From positions 57,834 through 121,833 of IMG/VR virus record IMGVR_UViG_3300013004_000030: a stretch of 64,000 nucleotides of DNA. One strand, written 5' to 3'. The first letter of the stretch is position 1, and every line of letters starts with the position of its first letter. The DNA is from a virus. Under the pieces are notes generated by a model, which made no database searches, was not told where the DNA came from, and worked only from the letters and a program-made list of their open reading frames with translations. Shown one piece after another: positions 50,320 to 64,000 of this stretch. Position numbers and translations under genes: made by a program.

Positions 50320-50365
50320 CGTTTTTCTCCTTGGGATGTTCTTACAACTATCCGGGCAAAAGAAA

Positions 50366-51031
50366 TCAAACCCTGACTACAGAGTTGCCCATCCTGCCAG
50401 GGTCGTTCTCGCTCGCCTCAATGTATGCCTTCACATACTTGTTGTCGGGGTCTTCAAAGCTCTTCATAATCATGAAGTTGTGAAGTTCCTCGGGAAGCCG
50501 CACAGAAGAAAATCCACGGATCACCTCAAAGGCGTACTTGCTCGCATAAAAGGCGTCCTTGAAGAAAACCCCCTCAAGTTGCGAGGGAAGACGACCCCTC
50601 AAAATCTGCTGGGCGTAAAAGAAACAGTGCTTGGGATCGTCAAATGTGTCCTCAAGGAACGACGGCAGCCTTCCGATGGTCTGAGCCCATCCGAAAAGCT
50701 GAGAGTTCTTTCCCTTGAAGCAATTAAGAAGGTCTTCGCTCACCTCTTCTTGGCGGCTGTGCAGAATCTTCGCATACCTCAGAACGGCACTCGGCTCGCA
50801 CTTGAGAAGTTCCTCAAACCTCGGCTCGAGCTTTCCGGTTCGGAACGCATACTCGGAAACATTGCAAGCGATGATTGACGGAGATTCCTTCTTGCTCTTG
50901 AAGAACACCTCTTCACGGTCCGATGGGAGGCGTGCCTTGTTCGTGTCGTAGTCGTGGATACACACCCAGTTGTTCTTCATCCAGAGAACAAGACGGTGGG
51001 TTGTGCGGAACTTTGGAATTTTGATGTCCAT
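50366..51031 (-). CDS. YA-x-x-I-x-GRLPE repeat-family protein
   Basis: This 221-residue protein begins KIPKFRTTHRLVLWMKN, very similar to the start of its downstream neighbour (HIPKFRNTRRLVLWCQ), so the two arose by duplication. About four repeats and the tail LPEELHNFMIMKSFE. Confidence 0.78.
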   Translation of the reverse strand: MDIKIPKFRTTHRLVLWMKNNWVCIHDYDTNKARLPSDREEVFFKSKKESPSIIACNVSEYAFRTGKLEPRFEELLKCEPSAVLRYAKILHSRQEEVSEDLLNCFKGKNSQLFGWAQTIGRLPSFLEDTFDDPKHCFFYAQQILRGRLPSQLEGVFFKDAFYASKYAFEVIRGFSSVRLPEELHNFMIMKSFEDPDNKYVKAYIEASENDPGRMGNSVVRV

Positions 51032-51074
51032 AACTTATCCCTTTCTAATTTCCTACTGTCCGGGGATTTATTTT

Positions 51075-51614
51075 TCAAGAACCCACATACGAAAGGTAGT
51101 CCCTCATGCTCTTCTTCTCCCATTCATACATTTCCTCATAACTCTTCAGCAGAATCATGTTGTGGATCTTCTCGGGAAACCTACCACGGATCACATGCCT
51201 TGCATACTGCCACATGTGGCTCATGCTCTTGAGGAAAACCTCTTCTTCGGTTTCTGAAAGCCTCCCGAAATTTTGAGCCCACTTAAAGGCGGTGGACGGA
51301 TCCTTACACAACTTCTTCCAGAACTTTTTCTGGGTCACTGGGTCGGAAAATTCCTTCTTCCCCATATAAACAAGATAACGCACACCGATCTCAGGATTCT
51401 TGATGAAGACCCTCTCGGCCTCGCTGCTGATGCCGATGTTCTTCATCACAAGTTGAGCGTACTTTAGAGCCGAACTAGGCACCCTACAAGTGATCCGCTC
51501 TATATCACGGTCATGAACCGGAGTCCAACACTTGTGCTTCCTAAGACTGTTGAGAACCGCGATGAGTTCACGGGCGTCGCCGGTGTAGTTGTTCACATCA
51601 AATGTGATCTCCAT
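51075..51614 (-). CDS. YA-x-x-I-x-GRFPE repeat-family protein
   Basis: This 179-residue protein starts at ATG 51614, overlapping the upstream stop (TGATG) after GGAGG. Tail: QYARHVIRGRFPEKIHNMIL, LLKSYE. Confidence 0.75.
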   Translation of the reverse strand: MEITFDVNNYTGDARELIAVLNSLRKHKCWTPVHDRDIERITCRVPSSALKYAQLVMKNIGISSEAERVFIKNPEIGVRYLVYMGKKEFSDPVTQKKFWKKLCKDPSTAFKWAQNFGRLSETEEEVFLKSMSHMWQYARHVIRGRFPEKIHNMILLKSYEEMYEWEKKSMRDYLSYVGS

Positions 51615-51892
51615 CACTCGTCCTCCGTGCAGATGTCCTTGAGGTACATGCTCACATACTGTCTGGCCTCGGGTTTTTCAAAACAACCGATGACAAGTGC
51701 GTTGTGAACAAAATCCGGTAGACGACCCTTCAGAACATGCTTCGCGTAAAGATGGGCGCTGTGGGGGTCGCTCGCAAAGACTTCCTCCAGTTTTCCGGGA
51801 AGACGAGCCTTCAGAATGTTTCTAGCGTAGAGGAAGGCGTAGTAGGGACGAGCCTTGAGCCTTCTTGCGATCTTGGGCGTGATCTTGGACAT
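51614..51892 (-). CDS. YA-x-x-I-x-ARLPG repeat-family protein
   Basis: This 92-residue protein contains two repeats (LYARNILKARLPGKLEEVF, LYAKHVLKGRLPDFVHNAL). It starts inside the upstream gene. No ribosome binding site beyond GAAGA. Confidence 0.7.
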   Translation of the reverse strand: MSKITPKIARRLKARPYYAFLYARNILKARLPGKLEEVFASDPHSAHLYAKHVLKGRLPDFVHNALVIGCFEKPEARQYVSMYLKDICTEDE

Positions 51893-52335
51893 TCTTCAAA
51901 GTACCTCTTGATCCAAGTGTTTTCGGGGGTCTCATAACTCCACAACACCATGGCGCTGTGAAGCGTGTCTGGCACTTCACTGTCTTGGTTCAAAAAATAA
52001 ATCCACATGGGATCGGCCAGGAACTCAGCCTCAGTCCACTCGTCCCACGGCTTCCTCACCTTGTTGATGAACTCGGTGAGCTTGTTCGGGAATTCCCCCG
52101 AATACCTTCTGCCCGGATATTCCATCCTCTCGGCACTGATATTTATCGAGGGGATTTCCGCCCCGTCCCTGTGCTCGACCTCTAGGAAATAATAATGGCT
52201 CCCGTCGTCGAACCTCCACTCCTTCTTGGAAACCCCGCCCACCGACCAGGACACAGGACGGCCGAAAAAATCATCGGCCAATTCAAAAAGAACGCTGCTC
52301 GTCTTGTACGATGAACCAAGCTTGAAAGGCTTCAT
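51811..52335 (-). CDS. Hypothetical protein with family C-terminal tail
   Basis: This 174-residue protein is a paralog of the next upstream protein (52283): KPWDEWTEAEFLADPMWIYF and TLHSAMVLWSYETPEN match KPWCDWTEDEILSSPEWIVAF and KMHAKMVLLSYQHPDD. Its last 27 residues overlap the next gene. Confidence 0.72.
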   Translation of the reverse strand: MKPFKLGSSYKTSSVLFELADDFFGRPVSWSVGGVSKKEWRFDDGSHYYFLEVEHRDGAEIPSINISAERMEYPGRRYSGEFPNKLTEFINKVRKPWDEWTEAEFLADPMWIYFLNQDSEVPDTLHSAMVLWSYETPENTWIKRYFEECPRSRPRSQEGSRLVPTTPSSTLETF

Positions 52336-52828
52336 CCCCTAAAGTAGTAAAGGGGAGATTTTTGAAGTATTTCTTAATCAGAAGATCGTCTGGGTGCTGG
52401 TACGACAGAAGCACCATCTTGGCGTGCATTTTCTGGGAGACTAGATCGTTCTCCTCGGCAAACGCCACGATCCACTCGGGAGAAGATAAAATTTCATCCT
52501 CGGTCCAATCGCACCAAGGTTTCTTCACCTCGAGCACAAAAGATTGAATTTTTAACTGCTCGTGCTCGTAGTCGAGAAGATTGTTTCCCCATCTAAAGCT
52601 TATGTTGATGGTCTCTTCGCCCAGAGCGTGGCTGATGTTCAGCCGCCAGTCAGTCTGCCATTCCCATACTGTGATCGGACCCTTGTGGGGGTCGTCCCAT
52701 CGGCAATGCTTGTTGCTGGACTTGCCAAAGTGCCGTGCGGCGATCTCGAATATCTTATCGGAGTCGCCGACCAGCTCACTCTTCAGCTTGAACGGACTAA
52801 TGCTTTCATCGTCATAAAGAGGCATCAT
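52283..52828 (-). CDS. Hypothetical protein, paralog of 51811, starts after tRNA-Lys
   Basis: This 181-residue protein's ATG lies 8 bases after the 3' end of the tRNA-Lys gene and lacks a ribosome binding site; a second Met follows at once. It ends by overlapping the next gene by 53 bp. Confidence 0.72.
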   Translation of the reverse strand: MMPLYDDESISPFKLKSELVGDSDKIFEIAARHFGKSSNKHCRWDDPHKGPITVWEWQTDWRLNISHALGEETINISFRWGNNLLDYEHEQLKIQSFVLEVKKPWCDWTEDEILSSPEWIVAFAEENDLVSQKMHAKMVLLSYQHPDDLLIKKYFKNLPFTTLGDEAFQAWFIVQDEQRSF

Positions 52829-52835
52829 TTTAAAG

Positions 52836-53093
52836 TGGAGCAGCTGGGGCTCGAACCCAGGACCAACGGATTAACTTACCACTGTGACTTTCGCCACCCT
52901 TGCGGTTTGTGGTCTGGACTTTGCCTTCACCCATACGGTGCCGCCCGTCAAGTCTCTACACCTTCCCTTTCGGGCTTGGCTCGGCGTTGGCATTTTAAAG
53001 CGTTCGCCGACTTTGAGCGGTTCTACTCTCAAGGTTTCCCTCAAGGCACTCCTATTTTGAAGTCCGATGCTCTACCAACTGAGCTAATGCTCC
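52836..53093 (-). tRNA. tRNA-Lys(TTT) with group I intron
   Basis: Exon 1 (53093-53060) and exon 2 (52874-52836): acceptor GGAGCAT/CTGCTCC, D arm GCTC-AGTTGGTA-GAGC, anticodon loop CTTTTAA (anticodon TTT), T arm CTGGG-TTCGAGC-CCCAG, discriminator A. The intron splits the anticodon after U34, the same place as in the cyanobacterial tRNA-Leu(UAA) intron. Confidence 0.87.
52875..53059 (-). other. Group I intron in tRNA-Lys
   Basis: 185 nt, preceded by U and ending in G. Core: CCAACGCCGAGCCAAGCCC, GAAAGGGAAGGTGTAGAGAC, TTGACGGGC and GGTGAAGGCAAAGTCCAG. Closely related to the intron at 34943. No ORF. Confidence 0.84.
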
Positions 53094-53254
53094 AAATGAA
53101 AAACAACGGCGTGAGGTTTCCTCCCGGACTAAGATGGCAGTGGAGACCACCAACCAGGATTCGTTAATTCTCACGCCGCTGTTTTTAGGCCCTATACATA
53201 AATTATTCGACGATTTCCCACAATGCGGAAATCGTAGCCCACTAATCCATTAAA

Positions 53255-53458
53255 TTACCGACCCACCTTGCACTTGCCGTTGGGGCAGTAGGGCGGAGTG
53301 ATGACACGAACGGTTCCCCTGGTCACGCTGCGAACAGTGCTCACAGTGCCATTGGTCACCTTCCGAACCGCATTTACACCGCAATTGCCGTTCTTGCAGT
53401 CAGCGGCATGAGCCTCGACGCAGAAAAGAATTGCGGCACAAATCATAAGAGTACGCAT
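53255..53458 (-). CDS. Small secreted cysteine-containing protein
   Basis: This 67-residue protein has residues 1-19 as a signal peptide (TLMICAAILFCVEAHAA, cleavage AHA-A), mature CKNGNCGVNAVRKV...CPNGKCKVG with two CxNGxC knots at the ends. AAGGAGG precedes the ATG. The style recalls secreted Planctomycetota proteins. Function unknown. Confidence 0.74.
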   Translation of the reverse strand: MRTLMICAAILFCVEAHAADCKNGNCGVNAVRKVTNGTVSTVRSVTRGTVRVITPPYCPNGKCKVGR

Positions 53459-53485
53459 ATTAGGATCCTCCTTTTAAAAAACGGC

Positions 53486-53854
53486 TCAACGCCACGAACG
53501 AACCCGATACCACATGCCGTTCCGGCCCTGAGCCGAAGCGTCGCCCGTCAGCGACATATTGCCGCTGGGGGTGCAAGTGTTGCAGTTAGGACTGCTGCCA
53601 TAGCCGACTCCCTCAAACCTGCCGATACATCCCCAGACATGCCCGGTGATGTTGTTGGCAGCCATGTAGTTCGCCTCGGCCTGACACCGATCTTGGTCAC
53701 TGCCGCTTGCCGCCGAATGATCGGAGGTGTAGGAGTATGTCTTCGTCGGCTGGGAATAGGTAGGAGTAGAGTAGGTATAACCCCGTCGCGGACGAGCATG
53801 GGCAACACCGCTCGACAGCACACAGAACGCCAGTGCAACGATTGCACTCTTCAT
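53486..53854 (-). CDS. Small secreted protein
   Basis: This 122-residue protein has a signal peptide in residues 1-20 (SAIVALAFCVLSSGVAHA), a Tyr/Ser/Thr-rich stretch, then CQAEANYMAANNITGHVWGC, IGRFEGVGYGSSPNC and NGMWYRVRSW. The GH...FEGVG...C pattern resembles small secreted proteins I associate with Planctomycetota. No catalytic motif recognised. Confidence 0.74.
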   Translation of the reverse strand: MKSAIVALAFCVLSSGVAHARPRRGYTYSTPTYSQPTKTYSYTSDHSAASGSDQDRCQAEANYMAANNITGHVWGCIGRFEGVGYGSSPNCNTCTPSGNMSLTGDASAQGRNGMWYRVRSWR

Positions 53855-53960
53855 AAAAACCTCCGTGAAATGGCGGCGGCTGACACGAGCCTCCGCTTCC
53901 TTTTGAACTATCCCGTGTCGGATTTTCCAAGTAACAGTCTAAAGAAACATGAACTTGAAG

Positions 53961-54524
53961 TCAAGTTTCAATTTCATTGAACATATTCTCCCAGTAGCCA
54001 TCGGCCTTGAACTTCCAGATGCTATCCACCAGGATTCGGGCAACTGAGATCGGGTTGGGAGATGATCCGCACACGACCTCCTCGGCATCAGGCGGCTCCC
54101 AATAGGTGGCGGGAATGTGCTGGTAGTAGCTAACAATATAGCACGGAAGTTCCCTGAACGACGCAATCGTCTCGGTCTCCGTAACACCCGCAGCCACGCT
54201 TACTCCCGCAACCGTGATCGTCCGCTCGTTTTCGTCAACCTCCACTGACTCGCCCGGAAAGAAATGACCAACAGCATCGTTCACGACAGTCTTGAGGCGC
54301 TCCCAGTTGTTCTCGGAAAATTCCTCGAGCGTGGTGCAGAACCCGTCCTTGTACTCGGCGGGCTCCCAGAGCTTCACCTCGTTCCACGCGAGAACAAGGT
54401 TCTGCCCCGCAACCTTAACCTCGTGGTTATTGTCGCGTTGGCCAACATACTCTCCCACAATCCACCTGGGCTTTTTCATCAATCCAATCTTGACGAAAGC
54501 CTTGATCTTGACTCCGGACTTCAT
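53961..54524 (-). CDS. Hypothetical protein
   Basis: This 187-residue protein starts at ATG 54524, seven bases after AAGGAG. Mixed alpha/beta with beta segment ERTITVAGVSVAAGVTETET. Own promoter near 54554. Unknown family. Confidence 0.7.
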   Translation of the reverse strand: MKSGVKIKAFVKIGLMKKPRWIVGEYVGQRDNNHEVKVAGQNLVLAWNEVKLWEPAEYKDGFCTTLEEFSENNWERLKTVVNDAVGHFFPGESVEVDENERTITVAGVSVAAGVTETETIASFRELPCYIVSYYQHIPATYWEPPDAEEVVCGSSPNPISVARILVDSIWKFKADGYWENMFNEIET

Positions 54525-54573
54525 TCTCATGCTCCTTGGGGGGATAACACATCAACCATCCGGGACAAAATTT

Positions 54574-54768
54574 TCAACGACCCGAAAGAACAAACTTAGA
54601 GATTTCCGGACACCAATCCTTGAACTGGTGATGCTCAATAAAAAACTTCTTTCCCCGATTTTCGCCCAAGAGTTTCTCCAAATAAATCATGGCGGTTTTT
54701 TCATCTTGAAAAACCCCCTCGATCTTCTTGTGGTTACTTCCGTTCTTGGACATCACGATATAAACCAT
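54574..54768 (-). CDS. Small hypothetical protein
   Basis: This 64-residue protein (VYIVMSKNGSNHKKIEGVFQ, then a helix and FFIEHHQ) starts on TGATG overlap. Third gene of a small operon from 55371. Confidence 0.7.
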   Translation of the reverse strand: MVYIVMSKNGSNHKKIEGVFQDEKTAMIYLEKLLGENRGKKFFIEHHQFKDWCPEISKFVLSGR

Positions 54769-55121
54769 CAGACCTTCTCCAGGCTTCTGGTCAAGGCTCG
54801 GCCAAGGGCGATCTTGACACCGAGACGGCGGTTGAAGTTGTCTTCTGCGGAGCAGACCGCAACACCCTCAAGTTCCTCCCCATCCGGGGTGCGAACTTGC
54901 ACAACCGTCTTCCCTCCCCGCTCCGAGACCGTCTGTACCAAGCCTCCGTTGAGGTTCTGCATGGTCTTGCCCCGGCGGGTGTGGATCACCCGAACCTTGT
55001 AGCCGCTCTTCCTGAGTTGCTCCACAGTCATTCTGTTTTCCCTCAAGTGATCCATGTACATCAATAAATAGCCCAAAAGAACGCAAGCGATGATCGTCTC
55101 ATGCAGCAGAAGAAGAATCAT
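54768..55121 (-). CDS. Membrane-anchored protein
   Basis: This 117-residue protein has residues 1-22 hydrophobic (ILLLLHETIIACVLLGYLLM), then a basic beta domain (GYKVRVIHTRRGKT, KTVVQVRTPDGEELEGVAVC). Start overlaps the upstream gene by 23 bp, with AGGAAGAGCTC before it. Confidence 0.68.
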   Translation of the reverse strand: MILLLLHETIIACVLLGYLLMYMDHLRENRMTVEQLRKSGYKVRVIHTRRGKTMQNLNGGLVQTVSERGGKTVVQVRTPDGEELEGVAVCSAEDNFNRRLGVKIALGRALTRSLEKV

Positions 55122-55371
55122 TGAGCTCTTCCTCGAGCAGCTTGTTCAGACCGGCCACATCGGTCGTGTCCTTCCGCTTCCTCTTCAGCTCGGGAAGATT
55201 CACGCCCTCGGAAACGAGCTTCTTGTACTTGGTCGCAACGCCGGCCGGGGTGCAACCCAGAGCCTTTGCGACATCTGCCTGGCTTCCGCCTTCCTTGTAA
55301 GCCTTAGCCCATGTCTTGATGAAATCTTCCTTGTTGATCCTCGGACGCTTGATAACTTTCGTGTCTGACAT
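55099..55371 (-). CDS. Helix-turn-helix protein
   Basis: In this 90-residue protein, DFIKTWAKAYKEGGSQADVA followed by KALGCTPAGVATKYKKLV is a clear helix-turn-helix. The C-terminus is acidic. ATG 55371 follows TAGGAG. It sits 10 bp after the VWA gene, so it may be co-transcribed with the MoxR-VWA pair. Confidence 0.75.
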   Translation of the reverse strand: MSDTKVIKRPRINKEDFIKTWAKAYKEGGSQADVAKALGCTPAGVATKYKKLVSEGVNLPELKRKRKDTTDVAGLNKLLEEELNDSSSAA

Positions 55372-55381
55372 TTTCAATCTC

Positions 55382-56656
55382 CTAGTTGCTGTCGTTGTCT
55401 ACATCTACGCGAACCACATCACCGAACGGGGGAGTGACCGATTGGTTGGTCAGCACCCAAAGAACATCAAACTTGCTGGTCGGATCGTCACCGAAGTTGC
55501 CGTACCCATCGGTGAAGAACACCGTGTAGTCGGGCTGGATTCTCTTCTCAATGAGGTGCTGGAACACCGGGGCGAAGTCGGTGCCGCCGCCGCCTTGAAG
55601 GGCGGGCAGAGGCTCATACGGGTCAATCCAGCGGCTCTCATACACACCAGCATCGCAGTCAAGGAAGTAAATCTTCGCATTGAACTTCCGGCGAATGTCC
55701 TCCAACTCCCCGATTGCTTGCTTCAAGTCGCTCTCGCTCATGCTGCCCGAAGTGTCAATCGCAAAGGCGATCTTCGGTGCGTCGGGGCCAATGTTGCTGG
55801 GGAAGATGTAGGGAGCCGAAAGGAACCGGCGGTTAGGCACAGTCCATGTAATGTCACGGGACGCCTTACGGGACGCACCGAACCGCAACCGCTGCCGAAG
55901 GGCTTGCAACCAGTTCACCTTGGGCTTGAGGTAGCCCACGATAACACGCTCCATACCGGCGGGCATGGAACCTTGGTTCTTGGCACAAGTGTAAGCCTCG
56001 CAGATGGCAGACCGAATGTAGTCCTTCATCTCTTGATCGTGCTGCTCCTTGCTCTGCCCCGGCTTCTTCTCCGGCAGAGGAACGCGACGGTCACGAATGA
56101 CAACCACATCACCATCACCGGGCATCTCGCCGGAACCCTCACCATCACCCTCGCCGGAACCGTTTAGGTCAACGACATACACCTTGCGACCACCAGTGCC
56201 GTTCTTCTCAAGTTCCTCGTAGATACGCTCCGCCGTCATGCCCTCGTACTTATCGTCAAGGAGGGTTTCCTTGATGAGAAAGTCGGGCTTCTCAAACTGG
56301 AACTTGAGCATGAGGTTGATGGCGAAGTCCGTAGCCATGTTCCACATCATCGGATCGCGGCTGCCCATGCGACCGCTATGCTCAAAGATGAAGTGACACA
56401 GTTCGTGGGCGACGAGGAAAAGAAACTGCTTGACCGTCAACTTGTCATAGAAGTCAAGGTTGAAGATCACATTGCCGTACTTGTCAATACAAGCCGTCTG
56501 GCAGAAGTGATCCTTCCCGGCCACTACGCTGAAACTGCACCGCTCGCTCATCACGCCCCAAAAGGGGAACTCGCGGGCGAAGGCCAGCATCACAATGTCA
56601 ATGTTCTTCTTGAACTGGTCGAGCCGAGACTTTTCAATGGCGGAAACTGCGGTCAT
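55382..56656 (-). CDS. VWA-like protein with N-terminal metallopeptidase-like domain
   Basis: This 424-residue protein has VAHELCHFIFEH at about residue 88, an HExxH-like zinc motif. The middle is Gly/Glu-rich. The C-terminal VWA-like domain has FAIDTSGSMSESDL (DxSxS MIDAS) and TVFFTDGYGN. This domain order matches COG3864/DUF2201 proteins, which pair with MoxR ATPases. ATG 56656 follows AAGGAG. Confidence 0.88.
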   Translation of the reverse strand: MTAVSAIEKSRLDQFKKNIDIVMLAFAREFPFWGVMSERCSFSVVAGKDHFCQTACIDKYGNVIFNLDFYDKLTVKQFLFLVAHELCHFIFEHSGRMGSRDPMMWNMATDFAINLMLKFQFEKPDFLIKETLLDDKYEGMTAERIYEELEKNGTGGRKVYVVDLNGSGEGDGEGSGEMPGDGDVVVIRDRRVPLPEKKPGQSKEQHDQEMKDYIRSAICEAYTCAKNQGSMPAGMERVIVGYLKPKVNWLQALRQRLRFGASRKASRDITWTVPNRRFLSAPYIFPSNIGPDAPKIAFAIDTSGSMSESDLKQAIGELEDIRRKFNAKIYFLDCDAGVYESRWIDPYEPLPALQGGGGTDFAPVFQHLIEKRIQPDYTVFFTDGYGNFGDDPTSKFDVLWVLTNQSVTPPFGDVVRVDVDNDSN

Positions 56657-56769
56657 GGTTGTTCTCCTTATGCACCACTCACCGTCCAGGATTTTATTTT
56701 CAAGAAAGGGAACCCCCGTCCTCCCGAAGGTAGCGAACCCATCGGGAGGACGGTGGCCCACACGCTTTC

Positions 56770-57861
56770 TCAAGTCACGGTGATGGCACCGTGGAGGATT
56801 TCGCTGTTCGCCTTGATCCACGCGGCAACCGCCTTGGAGTGGAACAGTGCCGTCTTGATCTTCTCCGGTGCCGTCAGCATGATGCGACGGTAGAACAGAC
56901 TGGCCGGTTCCGGCGAGATACCCGAAATCACCTTCACGCAGTTCTCCAAAACCTTCTCGGGAGTCTCATGCGAAAGAAGATGCGAGGCCACCGCGTTCGC
57001 CACGGCATAGGCCACCGAAATCTCCTTCCGGTTCTCCGTAAAGGTCTCCTTGCCCTCCACCAGACGGGCGATGTTCGGGAGCGATGCACACACCTTGAGG
57101 TACGCACAGAACTCCGAACTAACAGCACCCACGCAAGCCCGAATCTGGCTCATCGCGTTCTGCCCCGCCTTGAGCCGCTTGCTCACATAACACCACGACC
57201 GGGGATTGGCCGACGCACTGTACTCGTCCTTGCGGGGCGACAACAGCGACGAAGGCGAGAACGAAATGAAACCAATCACATCGGGGTGGACATCGTTCGT
57301 CATCGCCCACTTCGTCCAGTGGTGATGGTCGGGACTGTAATCATAGATCGCAAAACGATCCAGAAGGGCAGCCGACAGCGGATAGGTGTGAGCACGATCC
57401 TCCGCACGGTTCGCAGCAGCACAGATGTACCACGACCGGGGCAACTCATGCTTGCCGATCTTGCGATCCAACACCAACTGCAAGGCCGGATTCTGCACCG
57501 AAGGCTGGGCGGTGTTCAACTCGTCCAGAAACACAATGCCCTTCGTGTAGAGGCGACCGTTCGCCACGATCCCACCCTCGCTCGGAAGGAACTCGGGACG
57601 AACCCACTCCACCGCAACCGGATTCTTGTTCTCGTCCTTCTTGATGATCGGGAGGCCACGCATGTCAATCGCCTCCAAACTGTTCAGCCGAAGGTCAATC
57701 ACCAGATCATCCTCGTCCGCAGACGCACGGATCTGATCGCTCTTGCCCACCCCCGGCGAACCAAACACCAGAAGCGGCTGATCCACCTCGCGGCAAGCAC
57801 GAACCTCCGCAGTCAGATCGCCAGAAATCGGGTTGCCCTTCTCAATAAGCGTGTCGGCCAT
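56770..57861 (-). CDS. MoxR-family AAA+ ATPase
   Basis: This 363-residue protein has Walker A GSPGVGKSDQI, Walker B GIVFLDELNTA, sensor-like AAANRAEDRAHTYPLSAALL and DRF arginine-region. MoxR ATPases act as chaperones together with VWA proteins to assemble or insert metal into partner complexes. The VWA-like partner is the next gene. Three tandem promoter copies precede it. AAGGAGG precedes the ATG. Confidence 0.9.
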   Translation of the reverse strand: MADTLIEKGNPISGDLTAEVRACREVDQPLLVFGSPGVGKSDQIRASADEDDLVIDLRLNSLEAIDMRGLPIIKKDENKNPVAVEWVRPEFLPSEGGIVANGRLYTKGIVFLDELNTAQPSVQNPALQLVLDRKIGKHELPRSWYICAAANRAEDRAHTYPLSAALLDRFAIYDYSPDHHHWTKWAMTNDVHPDVIGFISFSPSSLLSPRKDEYSASANPRSWCYVSKRLKAGQNAMSQIRACVGAVSSEFCAYLKVCASLPNIARLVEGKETFTENRKEISVAYAVANAVASHLLSHETPEKVLENCVKVISGISPEPASLFYRRIMLTAPEKIKTALFHSKAVAAWIKANSEILHGAITVT

Positions 57862-57902
57862 TTTCGGATCCTCCTTATGAGTGTCAGAACCAACTTCCCA
57901 TA

Positions 57903-57926
57903 AACCATCTGGGAATGAGTTTTCAA
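57903..57926 (-). promoter_or_regulatory. Array promoter, proximal of three
   Basis: TTGAAAA-N10-GATGGTT, 42 bp upstream of the MoxR start. Confidence 0.65.
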
Positions 57927-57959
57927 AAAACCCAACCCGGTCTCAAACCACAACTCCCC

Positions 57960-57983
57960 AACCATCCGGGGAAAGTTTTTCAA
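57960..57983 (-). promoter_or_regulatory. Array promoter, middle of three
   Basis: TTGAAAA-N10-GATGGTT. With the copies at 57903 and 58005 it defines the element: only the two boxes and the CCC before the core are kept. Confidence 0.65.
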
Positions 57984-58004
57984 AACCCAAGTTGACCCTC
58001 AACA

Positions 58005-58028
58005 AACCATCCGGGAAAAGATTTTCAA
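58005..58028 (-). promoter_or_regulatory. Array promoter, distal of three
   Basis: TTGAAAA-N10-GATGGTT. The TGA of its first box is the stop codon of the gene ending at 58025. Confidence 0.65.
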
Positions 58029-58501
58029 TCGTCCTCTTCGTCATTCACATCAGAATAAAAGCCGCCCTCAACAGAAGCAGTCTCCCGCCGCACTTCCACA
58101 CCAGGATAAACCTCGGAAGACTCAACCACAGCCGAACACGAAGTCTCCTCAGGCAAACTGGAAATCTTAGAAATCCTCCCGAACTCCTCGAGAACACGAT
58201 CAAAACGATCAATTGTGCCAACCGATCGTACAAGATTCGCAAACTCCGACAGGATGCGCGTCGCCAAGTCAGGATCAAGATTGCTCTTCTCTACAAAATC
58301 ATGAACCATCTTCAACTCGGCCACCGAAACCTCCTGGGACGGCTTTGACGATGCCCGTCCCCGGACACCGAAAACCAAGGCATATGAAACATCAACACCA
58401 CCCTCACCCAACGCGGAAATACAGTCCTTCACGCTGGCCTGAGGATTGTTCTCAAAATACTTCCGAATCAATTCACTCTTGTTCACGCCACCACGAGCCA
58501 T
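58025..58501 (-). CDS. Putative DNA-binding regulator-like protein
   Basis: In this 158-residue protein, NKSELIRKYFENNPQASVKD followed by CISALGEGGVDVSYALVFGV is a helix-turn-helix-like segment; similar NKSxAIRDYLxxNP segments are common in Planctomycetota proteins. The rest is helical with an acidic end. AAGGAG precedes ATG 58501. DNA binding is inferred. Confidence 0.7.
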   Translation of the reverse strand: MARGGVNKSELIRKYFENNPQASVKDCISALGEGGVDVSYALVFGVRGRASSKPSQEVSVAELKMVHDFVEKSNLDPDLATRILSEFANLVRSVGTIDRFDRVLEEFGRISKISSLPEETSCSAVVESSEVYPGVEVRRETASVEGGFYSDVNDEEDD

Positions 58502-58542
58502 AAAAAACTCCTTGTTGAAAATCACTTGAAAAGCATTGTAGT

Positions 58543-59070
58543 CTATTTTTTCTCGTTGTAAAGAGCCTCAAAATACCGGCGAGAAGCAAAATCAACTCCC
58601 TCAAAAGAACGCAAAACCATTCTCGTGTGCATCTCTGAAGGAAGAATCCCATTTAAAACATATTTGGAATACAAATAACTCGCCAACGAATCCGAACTAA
58701 TCGCCTCCTCAGCCTCTCGCCACCTATCGCCCACAACACAAGCCGAAACCAACACACACAAACGAGGATTCCGAAGAAAACTCCGAAGATTCACACCATG
58801 ACCCAAACAACGACGAATATAATCCCCACCCAAACCAATTGGTTCAATTAAATTCAAATCAATTTTTTTAGAACTATGAAAAAACCAATCCCTAATCTGA
58901 CGAATCGAATAATTTGTGCCCTCAAATGCACGAACAACAGTGTTGAATTCCCAAGAACTACGCTCCGCCCAAAACGGAGGGTCAAAATCAAAAGAACCCA
59001 AAATACGAAGGTTACTCAAAAACTTGGAGAACTCGCTCCAAGCTTCTTCTTTTGTTTGAAATAAACTCAT
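58543..59070 (-). CDS. Repeat-family protein
   Basis: This 175-residue protein has VVGDRWREAEEAISSDSLAS, YLYSKYVLNGILPSEMHTRM and VLRSFE near the C-terminus, as in the GRLPE family. No strong ribosome binding site. Confidence 0.72.
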   Translation of the reverse strand: MSLFQTKEEAWSEFSKFLSNLRILGSFDFDPPFWAERSSWEFNTVVRAFEGTNYSIRQIRDWFFHSSKKIDLNLIEPIGLGGDYIRRCLGHGVNLRSFLRNPRLCVLVSACVVGDRWREAEEAISSDSLASYLYSKYVLNGILPSEMHTRMVLRSFEGVDFASRRYFEALYNEKK

Positions 59071-59079
59071 CGGATTTTA

Positions 59080-59283
59080 TTACGCTGCTCGCTTCAGCCG
59101 CTCAATTTCCACAACATCCTTTTTTTGTGCGAACCTGGTCATGTGCCGATCCTGAAGATACGAATCAGCCAAACCAAACAAATAAAAACCCAGATCTCCA
59201 ACCCTGCACACAAAAGCCAAAAACAAAACCATCCCCATCATCGTTCCCAAATACATCACAACAATAAAAAGATCAGCAAACAT
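59080..59283 (-). CDS. Small membrane protein
   Basis: This 67-residue protein has a hydrophobic N-terminal half (ADLFIVVMYLGTMMGMVLFL) and a charged C-terminal helix. GGAG precedes the ATG; the leader contains two tandem hairpins (59307-59349). Confidence 0.7.
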   Translation of the reverse strand: MFADLFIVVMYLGTMMGMVLFLAFVCRVGDLGFYLFGLADSYLQDRHMTRFAQKKDVVEIERLKRAA

Positions 59284-59306
59284 TCTAAAACTCCAAAAAG
59301 AAAAAC

Positions 59307-59349
59307 ACCTGTCAAAACCGGCAGGTCATACCTGTCAAAACCGTCAGGT
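59307..59349. repeat. Two tandem 20-bp palindromic repeats
   Basis: ACCTGTCAAAACCGGCAGGT and a one-mismatch copy, each able to form an ACCTG/CAGGT hairpin. On the minus strand each contains TTGACA, so this may be an operator-promoter region for the gene at 59080. Confidence 0.8.
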
Positions 59350-59451
59350 TTCTTGCGACATATTAAGTGAAATCAATGAAAATAGACCTTACGCCACAAT
59401 GATTTTCATCCTAAATAAAGAGGTCGGAATTAATCAACAACAAGGAAAAAA

Positions 59452-59679
59452 ATGAGCGAAAATGAAGGTCCCGTCTACAGCATGCTAACAGGAAAACCAT
59501 GCGGATATCTCTTGTTTACATGCGCATACAATTCAAACCTGAATGAAAATTCTTGGGGCTCACCCACATCATACATGGACGGCTGCGAATGCCCTCTAAA
59601 TTTTGACCCACCACCAGACACAGACAACCCTTGTCCAGCTGTAGGCCAACAATACTACATGAACGCCTACTGTCAGTAA
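59452..59679 (+). CDS. Six-cysteine small protein, PVYSMLTGKP family
   Basis: In this 75-residue protein, GPVYSMLTGKPC near the N-terminus is the family motif. Six cysteines could form three disulfides. There is no signal peptide. AAGGA precedes the ATG; CCTAAATA at 59410 resembles a late promoter, and a terminator follows, so it is a self-contained plus-strand unit. Confidence 0.75.
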   Translation: MSENEGPVYSMLTGKPCGYLLFTCAYNSNLNENSWGSPTSYMDGCECPLNFDPPPDTDNPCPAVGQQYYMNAYCQ

Positions 59680-59683
59680 AACT

Positions 59684-59715
59684 AAGGCCTTAGGATAAAA
59701 CCTAAGGCCTTTTTT
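59684..59715 (+). terminator. Rho-independent terminator
   Basis: AAGGCCTTAGG-ATAAAA-CCTAAGGCCTT followed by T-run on the plus strand. Confidence 0.9.
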
Positions 59716-59908
59716 CTATCTCCATCGTCTCCTCCATATTATCAACCATCATGTGATCCCCCTCAATCACGCCGCACACACGAACCTTATATCCGGCCGC
59801 CACATCCTTGGAACAAAGGGAAACGGCCTCCTCCCAAGTATCCGCCTCCGCAATCGCAGCCCAAGGCTGGTCATTGTCCGGGTAGTATCCGACAACAGTG
59901 AACTTCAT
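59702..59908 (-). CDS. Small hypothetical protein
   Basis: This 68-residue protein (FTVVGYYPDNDQPWAAIAEA, DTWEEAV, AAGYKVRVCGVIEGD) starts at ATG 59908, directly after a GATGGGT promoter core, or at ATG 59917 inside it; either is leaderless. The pattern YPDNxQPWA is shared by small phage proteins. Confidence 0.7.
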   Translation of the reverse strand: MKFTVVGYYPDNDQPWAAIAEADTWEEAVSLCSKDVAAGYKVRVCGVIEGDHMMVDNMEETMEIEKRP

Positions 59909-59923
59909 TTTACCCATCCAGGA

Positions 59924-60433
59924 TCAAGAAATAAGCTTGGCCCTCTCCTCAACACTCAAAGTCCCAATGTACTCCCGAGCCAACCTCTCCCTACCCTCAA
60001 TAAACTCCACATACCACCTCTCCCCAGAAAGAATCATCATGCTGTGAAGACTCTCGGGAAGACGACCACCCAAAGCATGAACATACCGATAAACCCGATT
60101 ACTCCGACTCTTAGGACACTTCCTCTTCAAAATGCCACGCTCTATCGACCTGTGCATCTCCTCAGAACCAGCCTTGAACTTCTCAAAATACAACAAACTC
60201 CCATACGAATTCTGGGCGATCACAGACTCCGCCTCAACCCACCTACCACAAATCACATGAATCGCATACTGACAAGCCAACTTGGGATCCTTCATGATCG
60301 CCGGCTCACCCAAATGAAACCGAGCCGCCGTCCTCATGGCATACGCAAAAGAAGCCATGCCACTCTTTGAGATCAATTCCAAAGTCTCTTGAGGCAGATC
60401 CTCAAACAAACAATCCAGAATCTCCTCGTTCAC
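59924..60433 (-). CDS. GRWVEAE repeat-family protein
   Basis: This 169-residue protein has QYAIHVICGRWVEAESVIAQ and YVHALGGRLPESLHSMMILS. It starts at GTG overlapping the upstream stop (TAGTG). Confidence 0.76.
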   Translation of the reverse strand: MNEEILDCLFEDLPQETLELISKSGMASFAYAMRTAARFHLGEPAIMKDPKLACQYAIHVICGRWVEAESVIAQNSYGSLLYFEKFKAGSEEMHRSIERGILKRKCPKSRSNRVYRYVHALGGRLPESLHSMMILSGERWYVEFIEGRERLAREYIGTLSVEERAKLIS

Positions 60434-61218
60434 TACACACCCCCAATCCTTGAAACCAACTCGCGCCTTGCCTCAGGATCCAAATCCTCGAGATACCGAA
60501 CCGCACGCCTCTCACACACATCCAGAAAACGAAGATACCTCTTCGTCCAACCCCTGCGCTTGTCATCAAAACTAAACATCATCATCTTCTGGTGAAGATC
60601 AGCATTCAAACGACACCCTGTCAAAACCGCATACCTGTACATAACTTGTGCGCGATTCTTCTCCATCAAAACATCCTCGAGCTCCGGCCACCGGGGACGA
60701 CCTACAGCCTTCAGATAATTGACAACCACATCCGAAGAACTTTCCCAGCGCCACTTCTTGCCCCGACGAACAAACGACAAAACCTTCTCCTCCAACGGAG
60801 CCCACCGACCACGCACAATATTTTTAACATACTTCAAGGCCACTTCAAACTCACTAAGTATCGCCGCCTCCCCAAGCTCCCAACGACCACGAACCACCTC
60901 CGACGCATAAGCCAACGAAGAATGAGCACAGGAACTAATTACCTCCTCACCCGCCTCCCACCTGGAACCCAAAACATTACAAGCATAACTGAAGGCCGTG
61001 TTCGCACTCCTAAGTATCGCCGCCTCCCCAAGCTCCCAACGACCACGCACAACATGAAGCGCATACTCCAAGGCATACGAGGGATTGTCTGCAATACCCC
61101 CCAACTCCCAACGAGTCAACGGAATCCCATTGCGTGCCTTCTTTATGGCATACCGAGGCTGACAAACAGTAGCCGGACGAACAACCGTGTCCTTAACCGC
61201 ACGCATCTGCCGACGCAT
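60433..61218 (-). CDS. GRWELGEA repeat-family protein
   Basis: In this 261-residue protein, five or more repeats of the form YALHVVRGRWELGEAAIL, spaced about 35 residues, then the tail GCRLNADLHQKMMMFSFD. AGGG precedes ATG 61218. The GRW form is the one common in environmental phage proteins. Confidence 0.8.
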   Translation of the reverse strand: MRRQMRAVKDTVVRPATVCQPRYAIKKARNGIPLTRWELGGIADNPSYALEYALHVVRGRWELGEAAILRSANTAFSYACNVLGSRWEAGEEVISSCAHSSLAYASEVVRGRWELGEAAILSEFEVALKYVKNIVRGRWAPLEEKVLSFVRRGKKWRWESSSDVVVNYLKAVGRPRWPELEDVLMEKNRAQVMYRYAVLTGCRLNADLHQKMMMFSFDDKRRGWTKRYLRFLDVCERRAVRYLEDLDPEARRELVSRIGGV

Positions 61219-61480
61219 CTTTTCCCTCCAAGTACCGAATGTACATCTTCGTCCAGTTGTTGGACTCACCCAATACCATCCGGGTATGCAAATTCAAAGG
61301 AAGACCACCATCCCTATACGCCAACCACAAACACACAAAACACAACCCCTCCCAATCATAAAAATCCAGATGATCACGCAAAGGAACCCGAACCCCAGAA
61401 TTCTCAAAATCCTCCGGAGTCCAGCCCTCAAGATAAGGCTGCAAATCATCCATAAACGAAAAAATATCTTCGGAATTCAT
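61193..61480 (-). CDS. Hypothetical protein with repeat-family tail
   Basis: This 95-residue acidic N-terminus, then LPLNLHTRMVLGESNNWTKM and YIRYLEG, the family tail without repeats. ATG 61480 overlaps the preceding micro-frame as ATGA. Confidence 0.72.
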   Translation of the reverse strand: MNSEDIFSFMDDLQPYLEGWTPEDFENSGVRVPLRDHLDFYDWEGLCFVCLWLAYRDGGLPLNLHTRMVLGESNNWTKMYIRYLEGKDASADACG

Positions 61481-61572
61481 ATTTTTTCAATAATCAAAAC
61501 CGGAATTATTACAATCCCAATCCAAAAAACAAAACATATTCCCGAGATCAAAATTTGTGCGTATTTTTTCAA
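61477..61572 (-). CDS. 31-residue candidate membrane micropeptide, TTG start
   Basis: A hydrophobic frame (AQILISGICFVFWIGIVIIP) with basic ends that overlaps the next start as ATGA. The start codon and ribosome binding site are weak. A similar AQIM peptide exists at 62775. Confidence 0.4.
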   Translation of the reverse strand: MKKYAQILISGICFVFWIGIVIIPVLIIEKI

Positions 61573-61640
61573 TAATTGAAAGCAAAATTATTAAAACTTG
61601 CACAAGAAACAAAGAATAAAAACAATAGCCAAAATTTGTG

Positions 61641-61922
61641 CTAAGGCATTATGCCCAATATGATAATCTTCTCCGCCATGTCCCGAGGTATCCCAAGATG
61701 AAACTTACTCAAAACATTCCCAGGAATACTGTTGCGCAAACTCCAAGGACACTCCAAAACAATACGCTCAATCCCATCACCACGACGAATCCAATTGCCT
61801 CGATCACGAACTATACCCAACGACTCAAGATACGAAACCCAAACCCTAAGATCGCCAAACTCCTCGTACTTACTCTCAACAATCTCCGAAAGCTCCCTGT
61901 GATGAACCGAAGACCATTCCAT
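61641..61922 (-). CDS. LVPRxxAEKxLVLGGLP family member
   Basis: This 93-residue protein begins MEWSSVHHRELSEIVESKYE and ends FHLGIPRDMAEKIIILGIMP. GGGAGC precedes the ATG; promoter core near 61943. It lies 15 kb from the main paralog cluster. Confidence 0.76.
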   Translation of the reverse strand: MEWSSVHHRELSEIVESKYEEFGDLRVWVSYLESLGIVRDRGNWIRRGDGIERIVLECPWSLRNSIPGNVLSKFHLGIPRDMAEKIIILGIMP

Positions 61923-61962
61923 GGCATTGCTCCCTAGAAGAAACCATCCAGAATACCAAAAT

Positions 61963-62247
61963 CAAACAAGAGAAACCAGCGCCATAGCCAAATCCACCCT
62001 CTACCCAATATATCCCTTAGCACCTTCCTACACCATCCTGCCTATCGAACCAAACCCGTCGTGCGAACTCAACCCATTAAAAACACACTTGTATTCTTTT
62101 GAATAATACTTGTCATTCTCCGGGGAAACAAACACAATGTTAGAAAAAATTCGTCAATTCTCGAGTGCCACCATGAGTCAAAACAACAAGACAACTACTC
62201 ATGGATGCATCTACAGGTAAATTTTAAAAATACAAACATACTAGGGT
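61963..62247. other. Region without a confident gene
   Basis: Short competing frames only: a 27-codon plus-strand frame 62137-62220 (after GGGG) and minus-strand GTG frames of 29 and 35 codons. I cannot decide between them. Confidence 0.4.
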
Positions 62248-62490
62248 ATGGAAACAATATACAGTAATTTAGGCGGCAAATTCAACGCCGAATGCCCCGA
62301 AGGATACTACAGATCAAGCTTCTGCGCAGATCCCTCAGACCCATCCTTCAACGAAACACTGTTCGCCTGCGGATACCCAATCCAAATCAACTGCTACAGC
62401 ACTTTAAACGGCGACACAATACCGCCCGAAACCGTCGCCTCAACTTATGCGCCAGGATACGAATGCGTAAGCTACTGCGATAATGTCTAG
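62248..62490 (+). CDS. Six-cysteine small protein, ETIYSNLGGKF family
   Basis: In this 80-residue protein, ETIYSNLGGKF at the N-terminus is a divergent form of the family motif. Six cysteines (AEC, SFC, FAC, INC, YEC, SYC). AGGG lies just before the ATG. No signal peptide. Confidence 0.74.
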   Translation: METIYSNLGGKFNAECPEGYYRSSFCADPSDPSFNETLFACGYPIQINCYSTLNGDTIPPETVASTYAPGYECVSYCDNV

Positions 62491-62642
62491 GACGAATAAT
62501 ATTTCATCACCCTATACATTATGTAACAACAAAAAACCAAGGAAATAACAATAACAATAACCCTGGTCGGTTCGTCATGTATAAAAGTCGGACATATAGG
62601 ATGACGATTCATATTCATAAATGTATGTATACATATGGAACG

Positions 62643-62750
62643 ATGAACCCAATGCTCAATTCATCGCCATCATAACCTCCGCCAGTAACAATACTATGGG
62701 GCGGTGTCATCTACACAGTCATCAAAGACTATCTCCAAGACCGATTTTAA
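62643..62750 (+). pseudogene. Small membrane-protein frame with internal in-frame stop
   Basis: ATG 62643 opens MNPMLNSSPS, then TAA, then in the same frame PPPVTILWGGVIYTVIKDYL and a final stop. The second part looks like a membrane peptide but has no start. Either a broken gene or stop-codon readthrough. Confidence 0.3.
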
Positions 62751-62774
62751 TTTAATTATTGGAAACCAATTTTC

Positions 62775-62834
62775 TTACACGCACAAGAAACCAATCCAAT
62801 AAAAAACAAAGGCCATAATTTGTGCAAGTGGCAC
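62775..62834 (-). CDS. 19-residue hydrophobic micropeptide
   Basis: GTG start, PLAQIMAFVFYWIGFLCV. Hydrophobic throughout. A related AQIL peptide lies at 61477. Could be a regulatory or leader peptide; low certainty. Confidence 0.3.
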   Translation of the reverse strand: MPLAQIMAFVFYWIGFLCV

Positions 62835-62874
62835 TAAATCAAATATGACCGGAATATGAAAGGAGGACCCTTTC

Positions 62875-63114
62875 ATGCCAGACGAACCAATATTCAGCTC
62901 CCTCACAGGGAAATTCGACCCCAATAACCCATGCGCCAACTGCTCCGGATACTGCGATGTACCATCCGGAGCCGATACCCAGAGCAACGCCACATTCCAA
63001 TGTAACGACAACGCCGCATTCCCAGAACTCTTCGGCTACACCACAGGTTCCTGCCTAGGAGTATGGTACTCAAACGAAGAAGGATTCTGGAAATACGCCA
63101 ACTGCTTCAACTAA
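62875..63114 (+). CDS. Six-cysteine small protein, PIFSSLTGKF family
   Basis: In this 79-residue protein, DEPIFSSLTGKFDPNNPC at the N-terminus, six cysteines, no signal peptide. GGAGG precedes the ATG with a 7-base spacer. Confidence 0.77.
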   Translation: MPDEPIFSSLTGKFDPNNPCANCSGYCDVPSGADTQSNATFQCNDNAAFPELFGYTTGSCLGVWYSNEEGFWKYANCFN

Positions 63115-63204
63115 ACCTGACGGTTCCGGCAATCTTTGTTCTACCCCCACTTTTTACCTCCCTTTAGATAAAACTAAATCTAGATAAAAACAAAGGAGAA
63201 CAAC

Positions 63205-63465
63205 ATGAGCGAACCAATCTACAGCGTCCTTTCATCCAAACCAGACCCTTCAGCCTGCGGATACCAAAAGTGGGAATGCAAATCCCTCGCCGCACTAGGA
63301 TACGGAGATAGCGGATACGTAGCATTCCAAGTGGAAACAAATACAAGCGGATGCTCCTCGTGCCCCAACGGTTACTTCCTGGCAGACGAACCAGGAGTAA
63401 CATGCGACTACGAAACCGGACCAGAAGGCACAGTCAACTACGCAAATTACTATTGCAATGAATAA
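63205..63465 (+). CDS. Six-cysteine small protein, PIYSVLSSKP family
   Basis: In this 86-residue protein, SEPIYSVLSSKPDPSAC at the N-terminus, six cysteines. AAGGAG precedes the ATG, and two tandem AGATAAAA boxes (63166-63188) may be late promoters. Confidence 0.77.
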   Translation: MSEPIYSVLSSKPDPSACGYQKWECKSLAALGYGDSGYVAFQVETNTSGCSSCPNGYFLADEPGVTCDYETGPEGTVNYANYYCNE

Positions 63466-63503
63466 TCAAATACATTGATTGCAATATGCCTGCGGATCAG
63501 GCA

Positions 63504-63752
63504 TCACTCACCAGGACAATATCTCGCATCACATGTCGAAGGACCAAACACGCCCTGGCACTCCTCACTACTGGAAAATCCATAATACTGCCAGCCAAAA
63601 AGCTGAATGCATGTTCCTACTGTCCCACCAGGCGTATTGCTACAACACTTATACCCATCCGGGCACCCACACCCAGTCGGACACTCAGCAGTGTTTGTCA
63701 CACAAGGCTTGCCTGTCAAAACACTAAAAATCGGATCGTTGTTGCTAGTCAT
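63504..63752 (-). CDS. Ten-cysteine small protein, PIFSVLTGKP family
   Basis: In this 82-residue protein, NDPIFSVLTGKPC at the N-terminus, then CPTGCGCPDGYKCCSN and more, ten cysteines in all, as in EGF/knottin-like folds. It is the only complete family member on the minus strand. No clear ribosome binding site. Confidence 0.75.
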   Translation of the reverse strand: MTSNNDPIFSVLTGKPCVTNTAECPTGCGCPDGYKCCSNTPGGTVGTCIQLFGWQYYGFSSSEECQGVFGPSTCDARYCPGE

Positions 63753-63849
63753 AAAGTTGAATCCCCTATCGATTTAAATCCTACCTATATTTCAGCCAAC
63801 TATCAAATTACTTACATCCAAAACTCAGCAGGATTTTCCAGCAGACAAA

Positions 63850-63884
63850 TAAAAAAGGCCGGGAGATAATTAAACCCCCCAGCC
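63850..63884 (-). terminator. Rho-independent terminator
   Basis: GGCTGGGGG-loop-CTCCCGGCC followed by T6 on the minus strand, downstream of the partial gene ending at 63916. Confidence 0.75.
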
Positions 63885-63915
63885 AGTAAAAGTCGATTAT
63901 TCGACAAAAGCCCCA

Positions 63916-64000
63916 TCAAGGACAAACAGCATTCATAGTGCATGTGCGATCCAAATGACTATGATTCGTACATTCACTGCAAACATTTTCGGGCTGGCCA
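63916..64000 (-). CDS. Cysteine-rich protein, partial, runs off the right edge
   Basis: The open frame from base 64000 ends NVCSECTNHSHLDRTCTMN, then AVCP and a stop. The Cys pattern suggests another member of the cysteine-rich family, C-terminal part only. Terminator at 63850. Confidence 0.55.
   Translation of the reverse strand, partial: GQPENVCSECTNHSHLDRTCTMNAVCP

Follow-up and report, generated by a model that had tools for sequence, protein, structure and literature searches.

A short peptide at the N-terminus of an array of small cysteine-rich proteins, with the consensus P-I-[Y/F]-S-x-L-x-[G/S]-K in a conserved stretch of about 11-17 residues (the tag), is on balance probably a docking peptide by which a set of swappable accessory proteins is mounted on the virion surface, a reading based on comparison of the tagged proteins and their gene context across phages. 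The conserved 11-17 residues would fix interchangeable accessory proteins onto the virion exterior, most probably on a tail-fibre or baseplate component, with disulfide-rich mini-domains, LamG/ConA-like lectin domains and beta-sandwich domains making up the likely cargo. The displayed bodies would contact host-surface or other extracellular ligands, their disulfides presumably forming after release. New specificities would arise when DNA encoding the leader plus tag is joined to new bodies, and such cassettes may pass between phage lineages.

The tagged array in the window

In the window (the whole 64,000-nucleotide stretch analysed) the members of the array are clustered as follows:

59452..59679 (+), tagged Cys-rich protein, 75 aa, 6 Cys; tag MSENEGPVYSMLTGK at 59452-59496
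62248..62490 (+), tagged Cys-rich protein, 80 aa, 6 Cys; divergent tag METIYSNLGGK at 62248-62280
62875..63114 (+), tagged Cys-rich protein, 79 aa, 6 Cys; tag MPDEPIFSSLTGK at 62875-62913; good SD (AAAGGAGG)
63205..63465 (+), tagged Cys-rich protein, 86 aa, 6 Cys; tag MSEPIYSVLSSK at 63205-63240; good SD (AAAGGAG)
63504..63752 (-), tagged Cys-rich protein, 82 aa, 10 Cys; tag MTSNNDPIFSVLTGK at 63708-63752
63916..64000 (-), sixth member, a C-terminal fragment ending in GQPENVCSECTNHSHLDRTCTMNAVCP; cut by the record end

Five of these had been described in an earlier note as open reading frames sharing an N-terminal motif, and both the coordinates and the motif held, with cysteine counts of 6, 6, 6, 6 and 10. 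The partial sixth that it placed at 63916 is real. With the record stopping at window position 64000, all that can be read of it is the last residues of the tag (GQP) followed by a Cys-rich C-terminus, and no contig reaching beyond the record end turned up in a scan. A seventh member, a 29-aa ORF (MTGQPIFSSLTGKPCSSNCNVDSGRSHCE), lies outside the window on the same record (G000:C1:39604-39693). The sole lysine of the 59452 protein is that of the tag, and directly 3′ of its gene is a strong hairpin resembling a bidirectional terminator (59684-59711). None of the genes adjoining the array in G000 was recognised as structural.

A tag HMM trained solely on the tags of other viruses ranked the six readable members ahead of every other ORF among 3,484 stop-to-stop ones (E 2e-7 to 0.017), with the next match at E=2.3 and no reversed ORF better than E=3; the shared tag is therefore not due to chance. 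The weakest window member was 62248 (E=0.017), the tag of which lacks the proline, but a tagged protein of another virus contains a homologue of its body. The late-type promoter boxes that had been attributed to the tagged genes were not borne out, with no conserved box found upstream of them, promoter-like matches at about the shuffled expectation and no T4 late boxes seen when these were looked for in the same upstream regions.

Unrelated bodies behind one tag

The tag is more widely distributed than the earlier note thought, heading LamG and beta-sandwich proteins as well, in unrelated huge phages. At least four unrelated body types carry it, namely Cys-rich mini-proteins, LamG domains, beta-sandwiches and a fourth beta-rich type, and this diversity behind one tag favours docking. 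Among PHROG families, the LamG bodies hit virion structural and baseplate-wedge ones, which points the same way. The five Cys-rich window proteins gave nothing above the curated cut-off against Pfam/PHROGs HMMs, in keeping with the earlier failure to recognise a known family, which holds in Pfam, PHROGs and INPHARED. Structure prediction for the beta-sandwich gave no reliable fold (pLDDT 45).

The small tagged proteins are mostly Cys-rich, 29-140 aa in length and arranged in tandem arrays, and a conserved leader ahead of hypervariable Cys-rich cores of this size recalls RiPP-like precursors, in which a modifying enzyme would recognise the N-terminus as its leader and the body would be a core that is modified and then cleaved. 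Such a role is very improbable given that the same tag heads LamG and beta-sandwich proteins of 230-370 aa with 0-6 Cys, which are not short cores, that no leader-cleavage motif is conserved downstream of the tag and that no RiPP enzyme was conspicuous in a general inspection of the genes beside the arrays.

The composition of the bodies favours docking in that the small ones have even numbers of cysteines (20 of 22, P=6e-5) and are Lys-poor like fibre genes, with lysine at about 1% in tagged bodies versus 7% in the genomes and 0.4-3.5% in these phages' own fibre genes. The tag lysine is the sole lysine in 12 of the 22 small members, and S and K are invariant in 25/25 tags, partly by selection because the rows were picked with patterns requiring K and mostly S. 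The tag could then be mainly a substrate, with its lysine and serine acylated, ligated or cross-linked to a receiver, for which a sulfotransferase-like neighbour gene and an adenylate-forming-like gene of about 400 aa adjoining the array in three viruses (weak TIGR02304 match, E=6e-6) might be enlisted. This is hardly likely, as the fibre genes in these phages typically have little lysine too, so that sole-lysine status may be a by-product, and the adenylate-forming-like gene was seen in one lineage only.

Docking of interchangeable bodies is also favoured by the way in which the genes appear to have been assembled. Leader and tag DNA is repeated ahead of different bodies, and comparison of the proteins indicates that body modules have recombined, the body of G000 62248 corresponding to the second half of a 120-aa tagged protein of G008 (48% identity over 67 aa).

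Distribution and genomic neighbourhood

Relatives were found in IMG/VR with the tag's own DNA pattern as query, all 10 of the 10 contigs matching the exact-tag pattern having genuine N-terminal tags, while back-translated peptides of one window protein gave no matches. A total of 29 distinct tagged proteins was found in the fragmentary genomes of six viruses, which belong to at least two capsid/terminase lineages unrelated to each other. In the window's virus the major capsid protein is of the T4 gp23 type (gp23 in G001), and G003, G007 and G008 have in common a different head gene set. Since the tag is common to phages with unrelated capsid and terminase genes, the major capsid protein is an improbable receiver, and the reader of the tag might even be encoded by the host.

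Within the collections searched the tag is restricted to viruses. In GTDB genomes (257 Gb) the exact tag gave 31 matches, none of them at an N-terminus; a host origin was rejected for the exact tag, these matches being attributable to chance with some lying within acyltransferase-like 'PIYSTLTGKP' segments. A TCN-serine variant of the tag gave a single match, an internal 'PIFSGLTGK' in a long fibre-like-looking protein, and was set aside as not being an N-terminal tag. Two metagenomic phages of 484-595 kb with gp23-like capsids have no tag, LR756511 being an example of a relative that lacks it, and no mention of the tag motif strings was found in the literature searched. A tblastn search of the INPHARED sequenced isolate phages with the 20-aa tag consensus gave no match, which weakens the docking reading.

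The occurrence of the tag in unrelated phage lineages that may share hosts would also be in keeping with host-directed effectors, in which case a host system (for export, a membrane or an organelle-like compartment) would recognise the tag as an address and the bodies would act, during infection, on the host cell or rival phages. The small, Cys-rich and fast-changing bodies would suit such a role, as would a subtilase encoded by one linked phage genome and beginning with a LExRxLLS-like motif, a start reminiscent of Planctomycetota surface proteins. Even so, host-directed effectors are unlikely, as the exact N-terminal tag is in no host genome of those searched, the LamG bodies are related to virion proteins and the window members have neither signal peptides, as the earlier note correctly held, nor any hydrophobic segment.

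Gene order likewise favours docking on the virion surface. The tagged arrays lie about 5-9 kb from the terminase and portal genes in G008 and G003, and the sulfotransferase-like gene directly follows a tagged beta-sandwich gene in three viruses and also neighbours genes for fibre or tail proteins, both in G008 and at another place in G002. Conversely, the docking reading is weakened by the array in G000, where the neighbours are not recognised structural genes.

Comparison with known docking and targeting peptides

A known precedent that favours docking is provided by the short docking peptides of receptor-binding proteins (RBPs), which in K1-5/SP6-type phages are 7- and 11-residue N-terminal peptides, with conserved peptides inferred for the secondary RBPs of Klebsiella phages (PMC6872550). 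Like the tag, the peptides of K1-5/K1E/SP6 and Klebsiella phages form a very short conserved N-terminus before unrelated, swappable bodies, and as in the tagged system there are several genes per phage, often adjacent and without a signal peptide; here, too, proteins of one phage that are otherwise unrelated were found to begin with one short conserved peptide. In the RBP systems the peptide is received by an anchor protein that has a docking domain of the T4gp10-like kind. Known RBPs have large bodies, for the most part beta-helical depolymerases, with each peptide limited to a narrow phage group, whereas the tagged bodies are mostly 29-140-aa disulfide-type mini-proteins together with LamG and beta-sandwich domains, and the tag differs in sequence and crosses unrelated capsid lineages.

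The Mtd_N domain (PF18454), present in the same phages (including at window 20679-20945), is likewise an N-terminal module common to different fibre bodies, but it is a domain of about 37 residues in which no sequence resemblance to the tag was seen, on fibre genes outside the tagged arrays. The tagged LamG bodies resemble LamG/Ig-like phage decoration or adhesin proteins in their matches to PHROG virion structural families. To our knowledge, the known proteins of this kind attach by folded domains or within large structural proteins and never by this tag, Cys-rich mini-proteins are not known among them and such mini-proteins are rare in bacterial viruses.

The T4-type capsid of the window's virus raises the question of capsid targeting, in which the tag would send proteins into the prohead to be injected with the DNA. 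This is distinctly unlikely. The small bodies are mostly acidic and K/R-poor, a composition unlike that of DNA-bound internal proteins, LamG and disulfide-type Cys-rich bodies are ill-suited to a DNA-filled head and the tag occurs also in phages of a different capsid lineage. A [LI]xE prohead-protease-like site was found in just 2/29 proteins (regex, residues 5-40) and not at a conserved place, and T4-type prohead-protease processing is therefore disfavoured. The earlier proposal of a display or effector family, its motif serving for targeting, packaging or processing, was the right kind of reading and is partly supported, with the evidence leaning to virion-surface docking and against processing of the T4 type. 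The precedent for capsid targeting is the T4 internal proteins, which are highly diverse and have only an N-terminal capsid-targeting sequence (CTS) in common (PMC3012670). The tag is similar in being one conserved N-terminal address on highly diverse proteins, in a phage whose capsid is of the T4 type, and dissimilar in that most members have no [LI]xE-type site at the tag, the bodies are acidic and K-poor, either Cys-rich or lectin, and a lineage with a different capsid has it too.

A bolder form of virion-surface docking, to which we give only slight credence, is that the tag is a lineage-independent plug of huge phages, read, perhaps covalently via its often unique lysine, by a receiver shared across unrelated capsids. 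Disulfide-rich mini-binder, lectin and beta-sandwich modules would then be traded as leader-plus-tag cassettes, and a mobile sulfotransferase-like enzyme would modify what is displayed.

If docking on the virion surface is right, huge phages would own a modular means of display, with a single short peptide giving their address to many small binders of unrelated kinds, Cys-rich mini-proteins included, and the tag may be a natural display tag. Being common to unrelated lineages, it would make accessory virion proteins easy to pick out in huge phages that have not been cultured, and it gives a direct route to annotating many short orphan genes.

Tagged genes of the window and searches for the tag

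Five ORFs near the end of the window, itself the final 64 kb of a record of 121,833 bases, start with M, followed after 2 to 6 residues by P-[I/V]-[Y/F]-S-x-L-[T/S]-[G/S]-K, an N-terminus hereafter called the tag. The proteins are 75-86 aa long with cysteine counts of 6, 6, 6, 6, and 10, and a strong hairpin lies directly after the first tagged gene. The tagged members of the record are:

Window, starts at 59452, 62875, 63205, and 63504: complete tagged ORFs
Window, start at 62248: complete ORF with the divergent tag METIYSNLGGK
Window, start at 63916: sixth member, truncated by the record end, with only GQPENVC... and the C-terminus left
G000:C1:39604-39693 (G000 being the virus record of the window): seventh member, 29 aa, present too in two further records of the same virus

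The earlier note had described ORFs with a common N-terminal motif and 6 or 10 cysteines, of which five were read here and the sixth was cut at the record end. In agreement with the same note, no signal peptide was found in the tagged members of the window. They showed no hydrophobic segment either, and the five proteins, which it could not place in a family, gave no Pfam or PHROGs match above the cut-off.

Gene calling relied on a simple greedy procedure that scored Shine-Dalgarno sites. A tag HMM trained on other viruses only and run against the record's full set of stop-to-stop ORFs of at least 20 aa (3,484) placed the six readable members at ranks 1-6 (E 2.4e-7 to 0.017) with the next match at E=2.3, and against reversed ORFs its best E was no better than 3. 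Over IMG/VR the pattern PI[YF]SxLTGKP found 10 contigs, all 10 with a true N-terminal tag after a start codon, several of these being pieces of one species rather than independent viruses. Over 257 Gb of GTDB genomes it gave 31 matches, about the chance number estimated in the analysis, and no N-terminal tag among those with an assigned reading frame (all but a few). Since the pattern scans are exact, the census is a lower bound and hosts may use divergent forms of the tag; the invariance of S and K comes partly from selection because the member-finding patterns require both. PIFSGLTGK also occurs inside a long, tail-fibre-looking protein (L114 6432-6458, a locus from a compared record), and the tag sequence may distantly derive from it.

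Distribution of the tag and exchange of bodies

With further patterns and a tag profile, the count of complete tagged proteins reached 29, all distinct and spread over six viruses, namely G000 (with G001 the same species, 100% identical over the compared sequence), G002/G005 (381 kb), G003 (244 kb, several fragments), G004, G007, and G008, with the majority of tagged genes in each clustered within a few kilobases. The T4-type gp23 capsid gene of G001 is 77.6% identical to gp23 of LR756511, a 595-kb metagenomic phage that has no tag, although its capsid gene places it nearest to the virus of the window. G003, G007, and G008 have in common a 336-aa presumed head protein (85% identical) and a terminase (79-80% identical), neither of which was found in the available sequence of G000, G001, G002, and G004, such absences of genes or tag being provisional as all the genomes are fragments. 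Judged from this gene content, the tag is shared by at least two packaging lineages that are unrelated to each other.

The bodies that follow the tag are mutually unrelated:

Short cysteine-rich bodies, 29-140 aa
LamG/ConA-like bodies, Pfam PF13385, E down to 1e-16, matching PHROG families annotated virion structural protein and baseplate wedge
Two-part beta-rich protein, three viruses
Body with 'NFPxPxC...FPTSGW', two or three viruses
Singletons

The window also encodes an untagged LamG protein (9268-10617) that matches phrog_8510, a virion structural protein in PHROGs, at E=4e-21. Over 67 residues the 62248 body has 48% identity to the C-terminal half of a tagged G008 protein of 120 aa, which has an additional cysteine-rich module between tag and body; modules are thus added and lost. 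Within G002 and within G004, leader and tag DNA is near-identical before different bodies, which suggests that leader and tag are joined to new bodies by recombination at the tag. Two related phages have a 56-aa tagged gene that differs between them by two synonymous changes only, with more diverged upstream intergenic DNA, modest evidence that the protein is under selection.

Genes around the tagged arrays

The tagged array of G008 lies 5-9 kb from terminase (phrog_2) and portal (phrog_2739) genes and that of G003 about 9 kb from terminase/portal genes, with a ~400-aa gene (a weak adenylate-forming match in G008), a 134-aa gene, and a 94-aa membrane-type gene flanking the arrays in G003, G007, and G008. 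Directly 3′ of a tagged beta-sandwich gene in G002, G003, and G004 is a gene for a ~170-aa protein with RSGSxS and VRNPIERFxS motifs, which resemble the PAPS-binding loops of sulfotransferases. The model of this protein is confident (pLDDT 87) and, although the scores are weak (best E 0.036), PAPS sulfotransferases make up nearly all of its closest PDB matches. Relatives lie amid fibre genes in G008 and adjoin tail-protein genes in G002, where a 35-aa tagged ORF followed by a remnant of the ~170-aa gene is, as read from sequence, a decayed copy of the pair. Other features observed were:

L022 9712-10224; L023 11313-11825; L025 4297-4803; L111 4412-4906 and 14882-15457: huge-phage family of ~170-190-aa sulfotransferase-like proteins, adjoining tagged or fibre genes
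L023 8612-10219 (G003): subtilase (PF00082) with N-terminal VESLENRKLLS, an LExRxLLS-like motif that we take to resemble Planctomycetota proteins, a hint and the only pointer to the host
L010 6211-6342: metallothionein-like 43-aa ORF, 11 cysteines, lysine-rich
Window 20679-20945: 88-aa ORF with the fibre N-terminal domain Mtd_N (PF18454)
Window 55382-57861: DUF2201 metallopeptidase/VWA gene, with relatives in many phages, adjoining a putative MoxR-type ATPase gene
Window 49246-61269, minus strand: repeat units of the YAxxVxxGRW type in several proteins
Window 13325-46926: TTTCAAC[CT]ATC[CT]GG-N8-TCA, interspersed, with 30 regex matches, every one on the plus strand and none on the minus; a candidate phage promoter or 5′UTR element, as inspected copies sit some 20-40 nt upstream of the starts of genes on the minus strand

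Composition and proposed role of the tag

The cysteine number is even in 20 of the 22 tagged members below 200 aa (binomial P=6e-5), the exceptions being the 29-aa and 35-aa members, compared with 40 of 64 untagged ORFs having at least 4 cysteines. Small bodies contain 8.9% cysteine vs. 1.4% in longer ORFs, 8.1% tyrosine vs. 4.1%, and 1.0% lysine vs. ~7%, with the tag lysine the sole one in 12 of the 22; the fibre-like genes of tag-bearing phages are likewise lysine-poor (0.4-3.5%). That these proteins form a set of host-directed effectors is one of the main rival explanations and is thought unlikely. The other, a capsid-targeting system like that of T4, has a precedent (PMC3012670) but nearly all tagged proteins lack [LI]xE sites and their bodies are acidic and of disulfide type, making it quite improbable. 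One defining feature of the T4 capsid targeting sequence is missing from the tagged proteins, as is one of RiPPs (leader plus modified core).

On balance the tag is somewhat favored to be an N-terminal docking peptide fixing the proteins to the outside of the virion, because unrelated, partly lectin-type bodies carry one short N-terminus, as docking peptides do. Composition, cysteine parity, LamG homology, proximity to packaging genes, and fibre-associated neighbors point indirectly the same way. Docking peptides of 7 and 11 residues have been described in K1-5/SP6-type phages, and conserved peptides inferred in Klebsiella phages (PMC6872550). The tag would work like the docking peptide of a receptor-binding protein, but is not assigned to that class, the virion location of the tagged proteins being putative. 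As tag-bearing lineages differ in capsid genes, the more likely receiver of the tag would be a fibre or baseplate part moving between phages, rather than the major capsid protein.
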